This document shows positions 4,441 to 21,176 of a DNA stretch of 21,923 nt, in pieces. Made by a program: the position numbers and the translations under genes. Each line of letters begins with the position of its first letter. The first letter of the stretch is position 1. Below the pieces are notes generated by a model. It made no database searches. It saw only the letters and a list, made by a program, of their open reading frames with translations, and was not told the origin of the DNA. The DNA is from a virus. Location of the stretch: the IMG/VR virus record IMGVR_UViG_3300045953_000106, positions 1-21,923 of that record. One strand, given 5' to 3'.

Positions 4441-5816
4441 TGCGGCTCTTCGGCCTGGTGATCACGCGCACGAAAGCACACCTGTCCGGCGTGGACAACC
4501 GCGGCGGCTGGTGGCCGTGGATTCGCGAGCCGTACGCGGGCGCGTGGCAGCGCAACGACGAATGGACCGTCGATACGGTGCTCGCGCATCACGCCGTCTA
4601 TTCCTGCATCACGCTCATTTCATCCGACATCGCGAAGCTGCGCCCGAAGCTCGTGCAGCAGAACGCGACATCCGGCATCTGGACGGAAACCGAGAGCGCC
4701 GCGTTTTCGCCCGTGCTCCGTCGCCCGAACCGCTACCAGAACCACATCCAGTTCAAGGAGTGGTGGACGACGTCGAAGCTGATCCGCGGCAACACGTACG
4801 TGTTGAAGGTGCGCGACGGCCGCGGTGTCGTCCGCGCGCTGTACATCCTCGACCCGTCACGCGTGCAAGTGCTCGTCGCGCCGGATGGCAGCGTGTACTA
4901 CCAGCTCGGCGACGACAATCTGACCGGCCTGCAGACCAACGGCGTGCAGCTGCCGGCCACCGAAATCATCCATGACCGGATGAATTGCCTGTTCCATCCG
5001 CTCGTCGGTATCTCGCCGCTGTTCGCGTCCGGCCTCGCGGCCAATATCGGCCTCAACATCGAGCGCAATTCTGCCGGCTTCTTCGGCAACAGCAGCAACC
5101 CCGGCGGCATCCTGATCGCGCCATCGCGGATCGACCAGGCGACGGCGGACAAGATCAAGGACATGTTTCACGCGAGTTTCACCGGCAAGAATTCCGGCAA
5201 GATCGCGGTCGTCGGCGACAACATGAAATTCCAGCAGCTGCGCATGACCGCGGTCGAGTCGCAGCTGATCGAACAGCTGAAGTGGACCGCCGAAGTCGTG
5301 TGCAGCACGTTCCACGTTCCGCCGTTCAAGATCGCGGTCGGTCCGATGCCGACGTATCAGAACGGCGAAATTCTCGACCAGCGCTACTACTCCGACTGTC
5401 TGCAGTACCACATCGAGAGCTTTGAAGCGGCGCTGGACGAAGGGCTCGGCCTCGAGGTCAAGATTGACGGCCGCATGCTCGGCGTGGAGCTAGACCTGAC
5501 CGGGCTCCTGCGCATGGACACGCAGACGCAGGTCAACACGCTGAAAGAGGGCGTCGCCGGTTCCATCTTCACGACAAACGAGGCGCGCCGGCAATTCGAC
5601 TTGGAGCCGGTCGACGGCGGCGATTCGATCCGCTCGCAGCAGCAGTACTACGACATCGCGGCACTCGCCGAACGCGACCGCACGAACCCGTTCCCAGAGC
5701 CAACGCCGCCCGCTACGCCGCCACCGACCGACAGCGCTGATTCGGTGAAGTCGCTCGACGACGGCAGCGTGGCCGAAATGGCGGTCAAGTTCGCTCAAAA
5801 CCTGAGAGCGGCATGA
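4440..5816 (+). CDS. Portal protein, HK97 family
   Basis: This 458-residue protein would form the dodecameric ring at one capsid vertex through which DNA enters and leaves and to which the terminase and connector bind. Recognisable family blocks are HHAVYSCITLISSDIAKL near residue 50, NSSNPGGIL near 217-225, the PPFKIAVGPMPTYQNGE block near 293-309 with the following Q-R-Y-Y, and IFTTNEARRQFDLEPVDGGD near 377-396. The C-terminus is Pro/Thr-rich and probably flexible. The length is normal for the Phage_portal family. The start at 4440 forms a TGATG overlap with the upstream stop. In HK97 and many relatives the portal gene precedes protease and capsid; here it follows them. Confidence 0.95.
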   Translation: MRLFGLVITRTKAHLSGVDNRGGWWPWIREPYAGAWQRNDEWTVDTVLAHHAVYSCITLISSDIAKLRPKLVQQNATSGIWTETESAAFSPVLRRPNRYQNHIQFKEWWTTSKLIRGNTYVLKVRDGRGVVRALYILDPSRVQVLVAPDGSVYYQLGDDNLTGLQTNGVQLPATEIIHDRMNCLFHPLVGISPLFASGLAANIGLNIERNSAGFFGNSSNPGGILIAPSRIDQATADKIKDMFHASFTGKNSGKIAVVGDNMKFQQLRMTAVESQLIEQLKWTAEVVCSTFHVPPFKIAVGPMPTYQNGEILDQRYYSDCLQYHIESFEAALDEGLGLEVKIDGRMLGVELDLTGLLRMDTQTQVNTLKEGVAGSIFTTNEARRQFDLEPVDGGDSIRSQQQYYDIAALAERDRTNPFPEPTPPATPPPTDSADSVKSLDDGSVAEMAVKFAQNLRAA

Positions 5817-6562
5817 CGATCGACGAAGTCGCGGCCTTCATGGCCTCAGAAGTTCGCGCGTATGTCGAGCGCACCGTTCCGGTGATGCTGGAACAGCGCG
5901 AAGCGCCGCTACTCGCGCGAATCGCCGAACTGGAATCGCAGGTCAAGTCCATCGAAGCGGTGCCCGGTCCAGCAGGTCCGGCGGGACCGCAAGGCGAACG
6001 CGGCGAAGCGGGTGAGACCGGCGCGGCAGGACGCGACGGCACTGATGGCGCAAAGGGCGAACCGGGACCGGCCGGACCAGCCGGCGAGACGGGACCGCAA
6101 GGCGAGCGTGGCGCGGACGGGACGGCTGGACCTGCCGGAGTCGATGGCGCGCCAGGCGAGCGCGGTGCGGATGGCGCGAAAGGCATCGACGGCCGCGATG
6201 GTCGCGATGGCAAGGATGGCCGCGACGGTATCGCCACACGCGACGAAATCGACGCCGCGTTCAAGTCGCTCTTCGCGGAGCACGAAACCGCGCACGTCGA
6301 GCGCATTACGTCCGCCATCAAAGCAGCGCTGCCCGACTTGCGTTTTTGCGGCGTGTGGCGCGACGGCGAGCACTACAACGAAGGCAACCTGGTGGTGTGC
6401 GGCGGCAGCCTGTTTCACTGCAACGAAACGGGAACGGCCGACCGTATCGGGAACGGCCCGACCAAGGGCTGGACGATGGTTGCGCAGCGCGGCCGCGATG
6501 GCCGTGACCTGCGTGAGCCGCCCGAGAAGCAAACACGCAACGCCCCGGTGACGCTGAGATGA
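5813..6562 (+). CDS. Collagen-like protein with C-terminal carbohydrate-binding-like domain
   Basis: This 249-residue protein has three parts. Residues 1-50 are a charged helix, likely a trimerising coiled coil (ARIAELESQVKSIEAV). Residues 52-141 are 30 uninterrupted Gly-X-Y triplets, Pro-rich at first and GRD/GKD-rich at the end. A second helix follows, and a C-terminal module (about 180-236) opens with FCGVWRDGEHYNEGNLV and runs to KGWTMVAQRG. That Trp/Tyr/Gly layout resembles small CBM5/12-like modules found on phage fibres. Phage collagen-like proteins usually form thin trimeric fibres. This gene sits between portal and connector with ATGA overlaps at both ends, so it is expressed with head genes and may be a head or neck fibre rather than a tail fibre. 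The collagen repeat is certain; the site on the virion is inferred. Confidence 0.9.
   Translation: MTIDEVAAFMASEVRAYVERTVPVMLEQREAPLLARIAELESQVKSIEAVPGPAGPAGPQGERGEAGETGAAGRDGTDGAKGEPGPAGPAGETGPQGERGADGTAGPAGVDGAPGERGADGAKGIDGRDGRDGKDGRDGIATRDEIDAAFKSLFAEHETAHVERITSAIKAALPDLRFCGVWRDGEHYNEGNLVVCGGSLFHCNETGTADRIGNGPTKGWTMVAQRGRDGRDLREPPEKQTRNAPVTLR
5966..6235 (+). repeat. Collagen Gly-X-Y coding repeat, 30 triplets
   Basis: This is 270 bases of in-frame GGN-NNN-NNN units encoding 30 perfect triplets without interruption. Codon choice varies between units, so it is not a simple DNA microsatellite. The first half uses GPA/GPQ/GER/GET units; the last units are GID, GRD, GRD, GKD, GRD and GIA. Confidence 0.95.
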
Positions 6563-17019: not shown

Positions 17020-17462
17020 TGAATGCAAAGGAGCTGAAGGATGGGCGCGCCGTGCGCGGCACGCTGACCGTGCGGAAGCATCGCGCCGACGGCAGCGGCG
17101 AAGTCGTGCGCATCGGCAACGAGCTGGTCGGCCCGCACGTCCTCGCCATTCTGTGCGCGAACATGCCGGGGCGCGAGGAGATCGACCGGCTGTCCGTCGA
17201 GGATACGAGCAACGCGAGCCTGATTGCGCTGCTCGCGGTCAACGCGACCGACCACAATGGCACGGATGCGTTCTGCACGTTCCAATGGGTGTGCCCGCCG
17301 GGCACGGGTACGGGCGCGTGGGACGACGTCTACATCCTGACGCAATCGGCGGAAGTGCTGTCCGAGTTCATCGGACGCAACGGCGACCTGGGCAGCAAGG
17401 GTGCGGGCGATACGTGGCTCGTGACCTACACGCTGTATTTCGTGCCGCTTTCAATGAGCTGA
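17019..17462 (+). CDS. Tail-tip-associated protein of unknown function
   Basis: This 147-residue protein is coupled to the tip gene by a TGATG overlap; an upstream in-frame ATG at 16965 lies inside the tip gene and is rejected. It starts MNAKELKDGRAVRGTLTVRK, with a beta-hairpin-like opening, a helical-acidic middle (PGREEIDRLSVEDTSNASLI) and a beta-rich end (DTWLVTYTLYFVPLSMS). Cys residues occur at CANMP, FCTFQ and VCPPG. Proteins of this size often follow the hub and help form the tip, but no family is recognised. It is the last tail gene before the only real intergenic gap. Confidence 0.7.
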   Translation: MNAKELKDGRAVRGTLTVRKHRADGSGEVVRIGNELVGPHVLAILCANMPGREEIDRLSVEDTSNASLIALLAVNATDHNGTDAFCTFQWVCPPGTGTGAWDDVYILTQSAEVLSEFIGRNGDLGSKGAGDTWLVTYTLYFVPLSMS

Positions 17463-17529
17463 GGATGCAACGGGTTTGGTGCGCCTCCCCTGGCGTCACT
17501 CACAGCCCACGGTAACGAAATGATGAGAG
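17463..17529 (+). other. Intergenic gap between tail and lysis modules with imperfect hairpin
   Basis: This 67-base gap is the longest non-coding stretch in the window. It contains an imperfect hairpin at 17479-17499: GTGCGCC, loop TCCCCT, then GGCG, one bulged T and CAC. No U-tract follows, so it is not a standard intrinsic terminator, and I see no convincing -35/-10 pair. It could be a weak processing or attenuation site, or chance. The overlapping ATG codons at 17520 and 17523 open a different frame that stops early and is not coding. Confidence 0.3.
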
Positions 17530-17823
17530 ATGACGGCACAGGGCAGTACTGGCAACGGCGCCAACGGTTACGGGCTCAACAAGGTTTTCACCACGGTCAT
17601 CGCCACGGTGATCGCGACGGGCATCAGTGCATCGGCGGTGTTCACGATCCGCACGTCGGTGACGCAGGCGCGCATCGATGAGCGGCTGGCGAACCAGGTG
17701 CAGGTCAACGCGGATGTGCGTGCGCGGGAGGTGGAATTGCAACAGCAGATAAAGGCGATGCAGACCGTCGTCGGCGATCTGCAGACACGGCTGATCCGCA
17801 TCGAGGAAAGGATGAGCCGATGA
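17530..17823 (+). CDS. Membrane-anchored coiled-coil lysis-module protein
   Basis: This 97-residue protein has a short polar N-terminus, one transmembrane segment (about residues 19-41, TTVIATVIATGISASAVFTI) and then a long charged coiled coil to the end (ANQVQVNADVRAREVELQQQ, then LQTRLIRIEERMSR). This N-in anchor plus periplasmic coiled coil resembles the layout of inner-membrane spanins, and also some holin-associated proteins. A GAGAG just before the ATG at 17530 is too close to be an ideal ribosome site. The gene ends in an ATGA overlap with another protein of the same layout. No outer-membrane lipoprotein partner was found with confidence, so the spanin idea is tentative. Confidence 0.65.
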   Translation: MTAQGSTGNGANGYGLNKVFTTVIATVIATGISASAVFTIRTSVTQARIDERLANQVQVNADVRAREVELQQQIKAMQTVVGDLQTRLIRIEERMSR

Positions 17824-18185
17824 CGCAAGAGGATGAAGCGCAATACGCGGCATGGCTGGACTCGGACGAACGCCGGGAGCTGCTGCGCTATCTGCGTGCG
17901 CAACTGCCGGCATGGGTGACGGTCGGCATGCACACCCTGCTCGCGTTTACGGCGGTGATTGCGATCGGCATCGCGGTGGTCGCATACCGTACGCTGGAGT
18001 CGAGCGTGCGCAGCGAGGTGCTGCTGACACAGGCGGTAAACGCGGCGCAGGCGGGCGCAAACGATACGCGGCTGTTGCGTGTGTTCTTTGATTCGACACT
18101 GGAGGCCGCGCAGCGACGCGCGGATTCCTTGCGCGTGATGCGCGACCGTCAAATCGACTCGCTTCGCGCGTTACGCCAACGGTGA
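17820..18185 (+). CDS. Second membrane-anchored coiled-coil lysis-module protein
   Basis: This 121-residue protein is coupled by ATGA to the one before. Residues 1-30 are an acidic/basic cytoplasmic helix (EDEAQYAAWLDSDERRELL), residues about 34-56 are a transmembrane helix (VTVGMHTLLAFTAVIAIGIAVV), and the rest is a charged helix (FFDSTLEAAQRRADSLRVMR) with heptad character. The layout again suggests an i-spanin or holin-associated protein facing the periplasm. Two adjacent proteins with the same topology could form a hetero-oligomer. No lipobox is present in this frame. Confidence 0.65.
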   Translation: MTQEDEAQYAAWLDSDERRELLRYLRAQLPAWVTVGMHTLLAFTAVIAIGIAVVAYRTLESSVRSEVLLTQAVNAAQAGANDTRLLRVFFDSTLEAAQRRADSLRVMRDRQIDSLRALRQR

Positions 18186-18194
18186 GGACGCCGT

Positions 18195-18401
18195 ATGACC
18201 AAACTGGCACAGACTGGCGTAGGCTTCGCGCTCATCAGCGCGGGCATATTCGCGTTCGTCTACCTCGAGCACCGAAGCGAATGGGTCGCGCTCATCCTCA
18301 TCCTGATCGGCGGCAACTTCGTTTCGCAGTCGATCATCGCGGGCGCGTTGAAGGGCGCCGCAGACCTGTTGCCGTTCCGGCGGCCGGAGGGGAAGCCATG
18401 A
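18195..18401 (+). CDS. Two-helix small membrane protein, holin candidate
   Basis: This 68-residue protein has two predicted transmembrane helices (about 7-24, TGVGFALISAGIFAFVYL, and 29-51, EWVALILILIGGNFVSQSIIAG), a short charged turn (EHRSE) and a basic, Pro-containing C-terminus. Size and hairpin topology fit class II holins. GGTGAGGA just before it (GAGG at 18184-18187) gives a proper ribosome site 7 bases from the ATG at 18195. It lies upstream of the endolysin and ends in an ATGA overlap with a 23-residue gene. It competes with the 49-residue protein at 19047 for the holin role. Confidence 0.7.
   Translation: MTKLAQTGVGFALISAGIFAFVYLEHRSEWVALILILIGGNFVSQSIIAGALKGAADLLPFRRPEGKP
18386..18390 (+). 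promoter_or_regulatory. Shine-Dalgarno of the 23-residue gene
   Basis: GGAGG lies 7 bases before the ATG at 18398, inside the last codons of the holin-candidate gene. Spacing and sequence are close to ideal, which argues that translation of the very short frame is real. Confidence 0.6.
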
Positions 18402-18469
18402 CATGGCTTGTCGACATCATCGAAACCGCGCGCATGTGGCGCCGAATACGGAGGGCGTTTTGCCGATGA
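18398..18469 (+). CDS. 23-residue cationic amphipathic microprotein
   Basis: This frame has 24 codons including the stop. It begins in an ATGA overlap with the holin candidate and ends in an ATGA overlap with the zinc-ribbon gene, and has its own GGAGG at ideal spacing. The peptide starts MTWLVDIIETARMW and ends with a basic stretch (RRIRRAFCR): six Arg against one Asp and one Glu. On a helix Trp3, Ile7, Trp14, Ile17 and Phe21 fall near one face and the Arg residues on the other, the pattern of a membrane-surface amphipathic helix. It has no homologue I know. A role in membrane disruption or as a holin regulator is guesswork; a pure coupling leader is the main alternative. Confidence 0.55.
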   Translation: MTWLVDIIETARMWRRIRRAFCR

Positions 18470-18648
18470 ACACGCGGACGGCGCGCGAACGTCAAACGAG
18501 CCTCGAAGAATTGCACGAAGAGCATCGGCAACGGCTGGCGGAGCACTTCGCGGACACGGGCCGCTGTACATGCAAGGCACCGATCCGACAGCGCCAGTAT
18601 CGCGGCGTGTGGACGTGCGCGGTGTGCCAAAAACCGATGGAGCGCTGA
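18466..18648 (+). CDS. 60-residue zinc-ribbon-like protein
   Basis: This 60-residue protein has a charged helix (ERQTSLEELHEEHRQRLAEH, about 9-27) followed by a C-x-C...C-x-x-C arrangement: Cys34, Cys36, Cys51 and Cys54, in GRCTCK and WTCAVCQK. This is a plausible treble-clef or zinc-ribbon site. GGAGGG at 18450-18455 lies 10 bases before the ATG at 18466, which also overlaps the microprotein stop. It sits between holin candidate and endolysin, an unusual place for a nucleic-acid-binding ribbon. The frame is open upstream to 18403, but coupling and the ribosome site favour 18466. Function unknown. Confidence 0.65.
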   Translation: MNTRTARERQTSLEELHEEHRQRLAEHFADTGRCTCKAPIRQRQYRGVWTCAVCQKPMER

Positions 18649-18649
18649 C

Positions 18650-19045
18650 ATGCCACAATTTTCGACGGCCAGCGAATCGCGACTCGCGACGTGCGACCCG
18701 CGGCTGCAATCGGTGCTGCGGCTTGCGATCGAAGTCGTCGACTTCTCGGTACTCGAAGGCCACAGGTCGGTCGCGCGGCAACAGGCGCTATACGCGCAGG
18801 GCCGCACGAAGCCGGGCAGCATCGTGACCAAGGTCGACGGCGTGCGCGTCAAGGGCAAACACAATTACCAGCCGTCGCGCGCGGTCGATGTGCTCCCGTA
18901 CCCGTTCGCCGGCTGGAACGATTACGACGGCTTCGCGTTCGTCGCGGGTCACATCCTGATGGCAGCGCACACGCTCGGCATCCGCGTTCGCTGGGGCGGC
19001 AACTGGAACAGCGATCTGGTCGACCTTCCACACTTCGAGGTGTGA
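18650..19045 (+). CDS. Endolysin, peptidase M15-type (L-alanyl-D-glutamate or D-Ala-D-Ala peptidase)
   Basis: This 131-residue enzyme would cleave peptide stems of peptidoglycan at the end of infection. The zinc-site pattern of phage M15 endolysins is present: KHNYQPSRAVDVLPYP gives His71 and Asp80, and DLPHFEV at the C-terminus gives His128 with Glu130. Conserved EGHRS (36-40), RQQALYAQGRTKPG and RWGGNWN (114-120) blocks also match. It is a single catalytic domain without a cell-wall-binding module or signal peptide, so release needs a holin. The start at 18650 is 1 base after the upstream stop. The exact bond cut (L-Ala-D-Glu versus D-Ala-D-Ala) cannot be told from sequence. Confidence 0.9.
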   Translation: MPQFSTASESRLATCDPRLQSVLRLAIEVVDFSVLEGHRSVARQQALYAQGRTKPGSIVTKVDGVRVKGKHNYQPSRAVDVLPYPFAGWNDYDGFAFVAGHILMAAHTLGIRVRWGGNWNSDLVDLPHFEV

Positions 19046-19046
19046 C

Positions 19047-19196
19047 ATGCTGACACTGCTTTCCGTGCTGCTCGCGCTGGTCATCGCGTACGCCGTTGTC
19101 GCGAACCGGACGCAGCCGCGGCAACTGCTGGAGGTCGTTCTGGTCGTCGCCATCATCGCGACCGTCGTCTACATCGTGTTCAACTTGGGGGGCTGA
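19047..19196 (+). CDS. 49-residue two-helix membrane protein, second holin candidate
   Basis: This frame of 50 codons begins 1 base after the endolysin stop. It encodes two hydrophobic helices, about 2-19 (LTLLSVLLALVIAYAVV) and 29-46 (EVVLVVAIIATVVYIVFN), joined by a short polar turn (NRTQPRQ). Such a minimal hairpin is like very small holins or pinholins, and placement directly after the endolysin is also seen for holin or antiholin genes. The last codons contain the GGGGGG that serves the next gene. No family is recognised; the transmembrane hairpin is clear. Confidence 0.65.
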   Translation: MLTLLSVLLALVIAYAVVANRTQPRQLLEVVLVVAIIATVVYIVFNLGG

Positions 19197-19197
19197 C

Positions 19198-19371
19198 ATG
19201 AACGGGAAAGCCAAGGCCAAAAAGGCCATCGATGAAGCGCGGCAGCACCTGATCATCGTGCAGGGGCTGCTGCAGAACGCGCTCGACGCCGTGAACGCGG
19301 CAGAAGGCGAAGACCCGCCGCCGCAGGATGACGAACCGGGGCCGGGCGTAACGCCCGTCGGAGGCGACTAA
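19198..19371 (+). CDS. 57-residue charged protein of unknown function
   Basis: This 57-residue protein has a basic N-terminus (MNGKAKAKKAIDEARQ), an amphipathic helix (HLIIVQGLLQNALDAVNAAE) and an acidic Pro-rich tail (EDPPPQDDEPGPG). The GGGGGG at 19187-19192 lies 5 bases before the ATG at 19198; the longer frame back to 19096 overlaps the 49-residue gene and is rejected. It ends in a TAATG overlap with the Ig-like surface protein. It could be a soluble partner of the small membrane proteins, but nothing shows this. Confidence 0.6.
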   Translation: MNGKAKAKKAIDEARQHLIIVQGLLQNALDAVNAAEGEDPPPQDDEPGPGVTPVGGD

Positions 19372-20609
19372 TGGGCGCGAACAAAATCAAGATTGCGCTC
19401 GTGACCGACTACGGCGAGCGCTTCAACGCGACACTCACGCGCGAGCTCGACCAGCCGCCGCAGTACATCACGCTGGAATCGGCGACGGTCGATGGTGTCA
19501 GCATTCCGACGGGGCCGCCCGTCGTCGAGCCGCCGCCGGTTGACCCCCCGGTCGAGCCGCCGGTCGAGCCGCCCGTCACGACACTACGCATCGTGAGCGG
19601 CGACGGACAGACGGCCGCGCCCGATACGCGCGTCACGCTAGTGGTGGAATTGGCCGGCGCGGATGGTCCCATTGCGGATGCGCGGATCAGCTTCATCCCG
19701 ACATCGGGCGGCGGCCGCTTCACGGCGGCAAAGCCTGTGTATGTTGCCGATCCTGTGGTCGAGGCGGCGGGCGGCCGCGTCGCAAAGACCGGCGCCGATG
19801 GCCGTGCCCAATGTGATTGGGTATTCGGCAGCGGGCCGCAGACTGCCGCGGTTACTGCGATGGATCACGGGCTCGATGTCACGTTCACGGCGACGGGAAC
19901 CACGAGTGGAGGCGGCGGGACGACACCGCCACCCAGCGGCAACCTGCCGGTCGCGACGACGTTCGACACGGGTTCGTCCGCACCTTTCGTAGACACGAAC
20001 GGCTCAGCGACGGGCAATCAGCACATCAACATCATGGACGACCCGACCGGCCAGTTCGTCGGCAAGGTCGCGCGCTACCGCTTCCAGCGCACGGGCGGCA
20101 GCGTCGACGTCAATCGCGCGCTCACCTACACGCTGTCACCCGGTGATGCGGTCGGGCTGGGCAAGACCATCTTCATGCGCGGCGAGGTGCTGATCCCGAC
20201 GCCGCAACCGAATATGGCGAACGCGATGCGCAAGCTGATTTATGTGCAGCGCGCCACGAATGACGCGAGCTTTGCCGTCATCAAGGCGACAGGCAACACA
20301 CTGAAAGTCGAGATTACGGGCAACCGCATCTTTTCCGGCGGCTCGCTCCCCTATGACGGCAGGGTAGCGCTGGAGGTGCAGATCACGGCCAACAGTGCGC
20401 TTGGTGTGGCGGACGGGATCCTGCGCGTCTGGAAGAATGGCGCGCTCGTGATCGACCGATCGGACGTCCTATGGCTGACGACAACGGCGCCGTTCAAGGA
20501 GATCAAGTTCGGGCAGCAGACACAGCATGAGCAGAATGATGCAACGATCATGTTCGACGAGTATCGCTATTGGGATAACCTGGCCGTGAGCGCGCAGCGC
20601 ATCGGCTAA
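19371..20609 (+). CDS. Surface protein with Ig-like (Big_1-type) and lectin-fold domains
   Basis: This 412-residue protein has four parts: a short N-terminal beta region (1-48) that may anchor it to the virion; a Pro-rich hinge with P-V-E-P units (about 49-69); an invasin-like Ig domain (about 70-176), with TRVTLVVELAGADGPIADA, a SGGGRF turn, GRVAKTGADGRAQCDWVF and a closing strand VTFTATGT; and after a Gly/Pro linker a C-terminal jelly-roll (about 191-412) with LRVWKNGALVID and FDEYRYWDNLAV, a pattern shared with LamG and polysaccharide-lyase-like folds. No catalytic residues can be assigned. The role is probably binding host surface polysaccharide. GGAGG at 19360-19364 lies 6 bases before the ATG, which overlaps the upstream stop. 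Whether it is head- or tail-attached is unknown. Confidence 0.75.
   Translation: MGANKIKIALVTDYGERFNATLTRELDQPPQYITLESATVDGVSIPTGPPVVEPPPVDPPVEPPVEPPVTTLRIVSGDGQTAAPDTRVTLVVELAGADGPIADARISFIPTSGGGRFTAAKPVYVADPVVEAAGGRVAKTGADGRAQCDWVFGSGPQTAAVTAMDHGLDVTFTATGTTSGGGGTTPPPSGNLPVATTFDTGSSAPFVDTNGSATGNQHINIMDDPTGQFVGKVARYRFQRTGGSVDVNRALTYTLSPGDAVGLGKTIFMRGEVLIPTPQPNMANAMRKLIYVQRATNDASFAVIKATGNTLKVEITGNRIFSGGSLPYDGRVALEVQITANSALGVADGILRVWKNGALVIDRSDVLWLTTTAPFKEIKFGQQTQHEQNDATIMFDEYRYWDNLAVSAQRIG
19548..19577 (+). repeat. Pro-Val-Glu-Pro hinge repeat
   Basis: A 12-base unit CCGGTCGAGCCG occurs at 19548-19559 and again at 19560-19571, then continues CCC-GTC. Together with the preceding PPPVDP codons it encodes a short stiff Pro-rich hinge. 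In-frame length change here would alter hinge length without breaking the protein. Confidence 0.7.
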
Positions 20610-20630: not shown

Positions 20631-21176
20631 ATGCCCATCGTTGACACCGACATCGTTTTCCGGCTGAGCATTCCCGGCGCGGCTGCTGGCGACGCCGACG
20701 CGCAGCCGGACCCCAACGACTCGCTCGGCGAGTTCATGAGCACGACGGCGCTCGACCTGGGCACGCCGTTGAACAACCTGTTCGATGACGTCAGCGGCGC
20801 AGAGAACGCGGCGAGCGACGTCGAGTACCGATGCATCTTCGTGCTCAACGATCACGCGTCACTGACGCTGCAGAGCGCGAAGGTCTGGCTGCAGTCGGAG
20901 GTCGCGGGCGGCGCCAGCATCGCCATCGGATTGGACCCCGCCGGCAATGTTGCGCGCAACAGTGGCACCGATCAAGCCGCCACTGTCGCAACCGAGCAGG
21001 ATGCACCCGCAGGTGTGTCATTCAGTTCACCGGCATCGGAAGGCGCCGCGCTGTCGATCGGGGATCTGGACGCGGACGACGTGCGCGCCATCTGGATACG
21101 GCGCACGGCTGCAAACACTGCGGCGCTCAACAACGACGGCGTGACGCTGCGCGTGAAGGGCGACACGGCCGCATAG
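20631..21176 (+). CDS. Beta-rich virion protein of unknown function
   Basis: This 181-residue protein begins MPIVDTDIVFRLSIPGAAAG and continues with a SLGEFMS block, NNLFDDVSGAEN and VEYRCIFVLNDH, followed by strands such as LTLQSAKVWL and a C-terminal IRRTAANTAALNNDGVTLR. This opening (D-I-x-x-R-L-S...S-L-G...LFDDV...E-Y-R-C-I-x-V) reminds me of a conserved hypothetical family seen in siphophage structural regions, but I cannot name it. It is beta-rich, acidic, lacks a signal peptide and has a strong ribosome site, so an abundant fibre or decoration protein is plausible. Confidence 0.7.
   Translation: MPIVDTDIVFRLSIPGAAAGDADAQPDPNDSLGEFMSTTALDLGTPLNNLFDDVSGAENAASDVEYRCIFVLNDHASLTLQSAKVWLQSEVAGGASIAIGLDPAGNVARNSGTDQAATVATEQDAPAGVSFSSPASEGAALSIGDLDADDVRAIWIRRTAANTAALNNDGVTLRVKGDTAA

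Follow-up and report, generated by a model that had tools for sequence, protein, structure and literature searches.

A 23-codon open reading frame overlapping both of its neighbors in a phage lysis cassette: a candidate ribosome relay

Introduction

A phage lysis cassette contains, between its holin-like and zinc-ribbon genes, a 23-codon open reading frame, here called p23, that overlaps both neighbors. Is it a gene and, if so, does it act through its peptide or through its translation? The initial annotation of this locus offered three roles, namely (i) a membrane-active helper of lysis, (ii) a holin regulator, and (iii) a coupling leader for the zinc-ribbon protein. We analyzed p23 in its context; the window, that is, the whole stretch of DNA considered, comprises the 21,923 bases of a virus record. 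Probably, p23 is a translated minigene of an ordinary kind in an interesting place. Our leading reading, which we hold tentatively and at a little less than an even chance, is that of a real, translated minigene acting mainly in cis as a ribosome relay.

Organization of the locus

The coordinates and sequence of p23 and the GGAGG located 7 nt before its ATG are all as first described. The ATGA overlaps reported for its two ends are also present, one (18398–18401) with the stop of the gene at 18195–18401 and the other (18466–18469) with the start of the gene at 18466–18648. The features of the region are as follows.

18195–18401, + strand: g68, 68 amino acids; hydrophobic windows span residues 4 to 52, and the resemblance to a holin is one of position and topology only
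18386–18390, + strand: GGAGG, Shine-Dalgarno (SD) sequence of p23, spacing 7 to the ATG at 18398
18393–18409, + strand: perfect 7-bp hairpin AAGCCAT-GAC-ATGGCTT (loop GAC) that covers the stop of g68 and the start of p23
18398–18469, + strand: p23, a 69-base reading frame of 23 amino acids, reading MTWLVDIIETARMWRRIRRAFCR
18450–18454, + strand: GGAGG within p23 (CGG AGG G); the spacing to the start of zn60 at 18466 is 11
18466–18648, + strand: zn60, a 60-aa zinc-ribbon/DksA-like protein (phrog_29598, E 0.0044; phrog_54, E 0.023)
18650–19045, + strand: M15-type endolysin, 131 amino acids (phrog_465, E 4.9e-38; Peptidase_M15_4, E 5.8e-5)
19047–19196, + strand: g49, 49 amino acids, with two hydrophobic segments; second holin candidate

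The setting in a lysis cassette is borne out by the M15 endolysin and by the short hydrophobic proteins g68 and g49 nearby. Protein-family searches gave no match for g68. The zinc-ribbon protein carries CxC and CxxC pairs; its matches to phrog_29598 and to the DksA-like phrog_54 are weak, and its AF2 model, a helix plus a beta hairpin, is of low confidence.

p23 exactly fills the space between g68 and the zinc-ribbon gene, and by virtue of it the 64-nt gap from g68 to 18466 becomes two 4-nt overlaps. Signals of the reinitiation type are found at both starts, 18398 and 18466, each with a 4-nt stop/start overlap and with GGAGG 7 and 11 nt upstream, respectively. The commonest junction in this phage is likewise a 4-nt overlap, ATGA or GTGA, and most gaps in the cassette are of 10 nt or less; a comparable gap of 67 nt is found before 17530. 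Another junction style, TGACATG, occurs at window positions 18399, 18646, 19043, and 19194, at gene junctions (one of them only possible) within the 0.8-kb cassette, and differs from the ATGA overlaps seen among structural genes. The inverted repeat at 18393–18409 could hide the p23 start until ribosomes from g68 arrive; the window holds nine 7-bp hairpins of this kind, so this one could be due to chance.

Elsewhere in the window, positions 20631–21176 encode a 181-aa protein (phrog_13135), whose relatives in the phage collection come nearly all from Vibrio phages, many of them large and KVP40-like, at about 40% identity. Directly after the portal gene, positions 5813–6562 encode a collagen-like Gly-x-y repeat protein, the C-terminal part of which is similar to the final portion of certain portal proteins (phrog_1289).

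Alternative start of the zinc-ribbon gene and codon use

The zinc-ribbon frame contains an earlier ATG that the initial annotation overlooked.

18403–18405, + strand: rival ATG in the zinc-ribbon frame at a TGACATG junction, giving an 81-aa zinc-ribbon protein; SD spacing 12

Were the gene to begin here, p23 would be an out-of-frame reading with no product. This ATG is a serious alternative to the start at 18466, although a disfavored one, and we consider it unlikely that p23 is to be explained in this way. An open frame runs from 18403 to 18648, and the ATG lies one base past the g68 stop, in the same junction as the next three genes: all four plus-strand TGACATG sites are in the cassette, and at the other three the endolysin, g49, and g57 begin. 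On the other hand, its SD spacing of 12 compares with 6–8 at the other two GGAGG starts, and the second GGAGG, ahead of 18466, is left without explanation. Both PHROG scores drop once the extension is added, the extension is modeled as coil (pLDDT about 50), and the 81-aa model is of low confidence. Positions 22–57 of the 62-position phrog_29598 align with zn60 residues 23–58, which favors the start at 18466. Finally, if the start hairpin is under selection, its palindromic sequence alone accounts for the second ATG.

Codon use bears on both starts. Over the whole frame, the synonymous codon use of p23 falls in the 1st percentile of in-frame windows. Its first 12 codons match the usage of the phage (0.25; log P of −3.76 per codon versus an in-frame mean of about −3.7), and the other two frames over these codons are not coding-like (−4.6 and −4.5). 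The last ten codons are poor (−0.52) and not coding-like, perhaps from carrying the next SD. From about 18430 onward the zinc-ribbon frame is more coding-like than that of p23, which counts in favor of 18403, but the first nine codons from 18403 show very poor use (−0.54). Across the stretch as a whole, codon use is good in neither of the overlapping frames.

Within 18430–18469 the coding signal passes from the frame of p23 to that of the zinc ribbon, near ATGTG at 18434–18438, which provides an ATG in one frame and a GTG in the other. A frameshifted single gene, with the two frames joined near 18436, was rejected, as no slippery site is evident there, and is kept as an oddity.

Chance occurrence of the pattern

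The features of p23 had been judged unlikely to coincide by chance. We obtained figures on both sides of this claim, all of them computed after p23 had been noticed. In its support, GGAGG is depleted in the window (21 observed versus 36 expected) and lies 4–12 nt upstream of only five of the 285 plus-strand ATGs, at 18398, 18403, 18466, 19371, and 20631; the first two draw on the same GGAGG, and the last two are clear gene starts. Among the 71 ATGA sites, the two with GGAGG at this distance are 18398 and 18466, the ends of p23. With g68 and the start at 18466 accepted as genuine, the double overlap arose in 1.2% of simulations of a random gap of 64 nt, and the double overlap plus an SD in 0.08% (8e-4). 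Against the claim, when any stop and start were accepted as neighbors, without the need for them to belong to genes, one or more short ORFs with an SD and the two overlaps turned up in 24% of dinucleotide shuffles of the window. In addition, across 2.4 Mb of loci that carry related endolysins or portals, the gene strand shows no clear excess of ORFs of this kind (28 unique versus 20 on the other strand; under stricter rules, three versus two). The claim is right only in part.

These figures are relevant to a further explanation, in which p23 is a product of chance and the 64 nt serve as a spacer or form a regulatory hairpin around 18466, where the zinc-ribbon gene starts. The lack of good codon use in both overlapping frames, the perfect hairpin at the p23 start, and the similar-sized 67-nt gap before 17530 agree with it. 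Nevertheless, we regard it as highly unlikely: GGAGG is placed at a spacing of 7 before 18398, the ATGA overlaps are exact at both ends, the RNA folding of the region is unexceptional (z −0.48), and there is no Rfam match. A search for promoters and terminators in the region yielded no regulatory element.

Search for relatives

No relatives of p23, g68, or zn60 were found in the phage and viral collections or in the fetched loci. Searching phages by tblastn gave only a chance match for p23 and no relatives for zn60 and g68, and scans of viral contigs with zn60, g68, and the tail protein gave no relatives of the first two. The same was true of phmmer searches of all ORFs in M15-guided loci from viral and genome contigs, and of the 49 related viral records searched. 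Degenerate DNA patterns for WLVDIIE and MWRRIRRAF detected no relatives in viral contigs, the 15 matches to the former being unrelated frames. The weak zinc-ribbon matches seen in two contigs (L003 and L168) appeared, when inspected, to be due to chance. Queries with the tail protein and phrog_29598 in 399 genomes of one bacterial order returned nothing useful; in a second order, relatives were recovered with the portal. Two viral fragments of 6.5 and 8 kb (L026 and L027) have a portal identical to that of the window and end before the lysis cassette. The nearest endolysins show 44–47% identity, and their cassettes carry other small genes.

Properties of the encoded peptide

As judged from its sequence, p23 would form a short amphipathic cationic helix. 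It bears a net charge of +4, from six Arg against one Asp and one Glu. The maximal helical moment is 0.68; among out-of-frame 23-mers 0.8% reach this value, and among composition shuffles 5%. The peptide had been described as amphipathic and rich in Trp, Ile, and Arg; its Arg-rich tail is in part a consequence of the CGG AGG in the last codons, which forms the SD of the next gene, a point that the initial annotation missed. p23 has no transmembrane segment (best 19-residue hydropathy 0.06) and therefore is not a holin by itself; it also has no signal segment and no match in protein-family searches.

The peptide might act as a membrane-binding helix, either a disruptin-like disruptor of the outer membrane or a modulator of the putative holin g68. 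The charge and moment fit such a role, as does the place of p23 beside the endolysin. About 13% of phages of Gram-negative hosts have no identifiable spanins, and the disruptin of PhiKT is a short amphipathic helical antimicrobial peptide (PMC12819732). In this cassette a convincing lipoprotein spanin is not found, there being no convincing lipobox ORF in 17400–19400 of the contig, itself a fragment. However, spanin-like functions could be supplied, at least in part, by g97 and g121, and no homologues of p23 were found in the collections searched. The tail fixed in part by the embedded GGAGG and the absence of signal and transmembrane segments also speak against a peptide function, which we consider quite unlikely. 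We consider a dual role highly unlikely: p23 would then be a ribosome bridge and at the same time a membrane-active peptide of lysis, and the production of a disruptin-like factor would be locked between translation of the holin and that of the endolysin.

Proposed translational coupling through p23

Of the three roles initially proposed, the best fit is that of a coupling leader for the zinc-ribbon protein, as p23 replaces a 64-nt gap by two 4-nt overlaps and reinitiation fades by 20–40 nt. Coupling by termination and reinitiation is lost over roughly this range of gaps: in Haloferax reinitiation is lost within about 20 nt, and in Escherichia coli 38 nt removed 80–100% of coupling, which depends on overlap and for which the final 15 nt of the upstream gene are enough (PMC10666635). 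Because the 64-nt gap exceeds this range, g68 would be uncoupled from the zinc-ribbon and endolysin genes if p23 were absent. A minigene of the axe-txe system raises translation of its downstream gene in cis (PMC8708949). Given the range of reinitiation and the existence of such cis-acting minigenes, we favor a relay minigene over the 81-residue protein, and the latter over a peptide helper.

In the proposed relay, ribosomes that end g68 would reinitiate at the overlapping ATGA, aided by GGAGG, and a passing ribosome would melt the hairpin at the p23 start. Translation of the 23 codons would be followed by termination at 18469 and reinitiation at the overlapping zinc-ribbon start. The single-base TGACATG junctions could then carry ribosomes to the endolysin and the next genes. 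As a result, g68, the zinc ribbon, and the endolysin would be kept translationally coupled across what is otherwise a 64-nt gap. A side activity of the amphipathic peptide is possible and is not needed for the relay.

Several observations count against the relay. The zinc-ribbon start has a GGAGG of its own, so coupling may be unnecessary, and its spacing of 11 is long; the low codon-use percentile of p23, the TGACATG ATG at 18403, the absence of relatives from the collections searched, and the frequency of the pattern in shuffles weigh in the same direction. RNA accessibility gave no clear sign that the zn60 start is exposed by the opening of p23.

If the relay is real, p23 is a clean example from nature of a ribosome relay formed by a minigene within a lysis operon, and genes of 23 codons can be recognized from their start signals. 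If p23 is instead membrane-active, it adds a very short lysis factor. The case also shows the need to check alternative starts in the neighboring frame.

Comparison with known systems

Very short genes do occur in such cassettes, as follows from an example in three related viral contigs, which are among those with the nearest endolysins.

L003:4346–4435, L005:4346–4435, and L006:4585–4671: 28–29 aa gene, e.g. MLTAIGLAVVVVALALGCWHLWRWFRGEP, with an SD and little amino acid change among the contigs

Like p23, this gene is very short, is preceded by an SD, lies upstream of an M15 endolysin, and encodes a Trp/Arg tail (CWHLWRWFRGEP); in L003 and L006 its start overlaps the stop of the preceding gene. 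Unlike p23, to which it is not homologous, it has a hydrophobic membrane-spanning stretch. Disruptins, with PhiKT as the archetype (PMC12819732), are also short amphipathic cationic peptides encoded with lysis genes. p23, for which no homologue was found in the collections searched, differs in that its activity is putative.

The ATGA termination-reinitiation pairs (PMC6728339, PMC10666635) share with p23 the 4-nt stop/start overlap, present here at both ends, and the upstream SD. In p23 the coupling is putative, and the middle partner has only 23 codons and seems to be a bridge. The mg2 minigene in the leader of the axe-txe toxin-antitoxin system (PMC8708949) is, like p23, a tiny ORF before another gene with a proposed translational coupling in cis. 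It consists of two codons, is separated from its target by 15 nt, and lies within the antitoxin gene region, whereas p23 has 23 codons and overlaps its neighbors at both ends.
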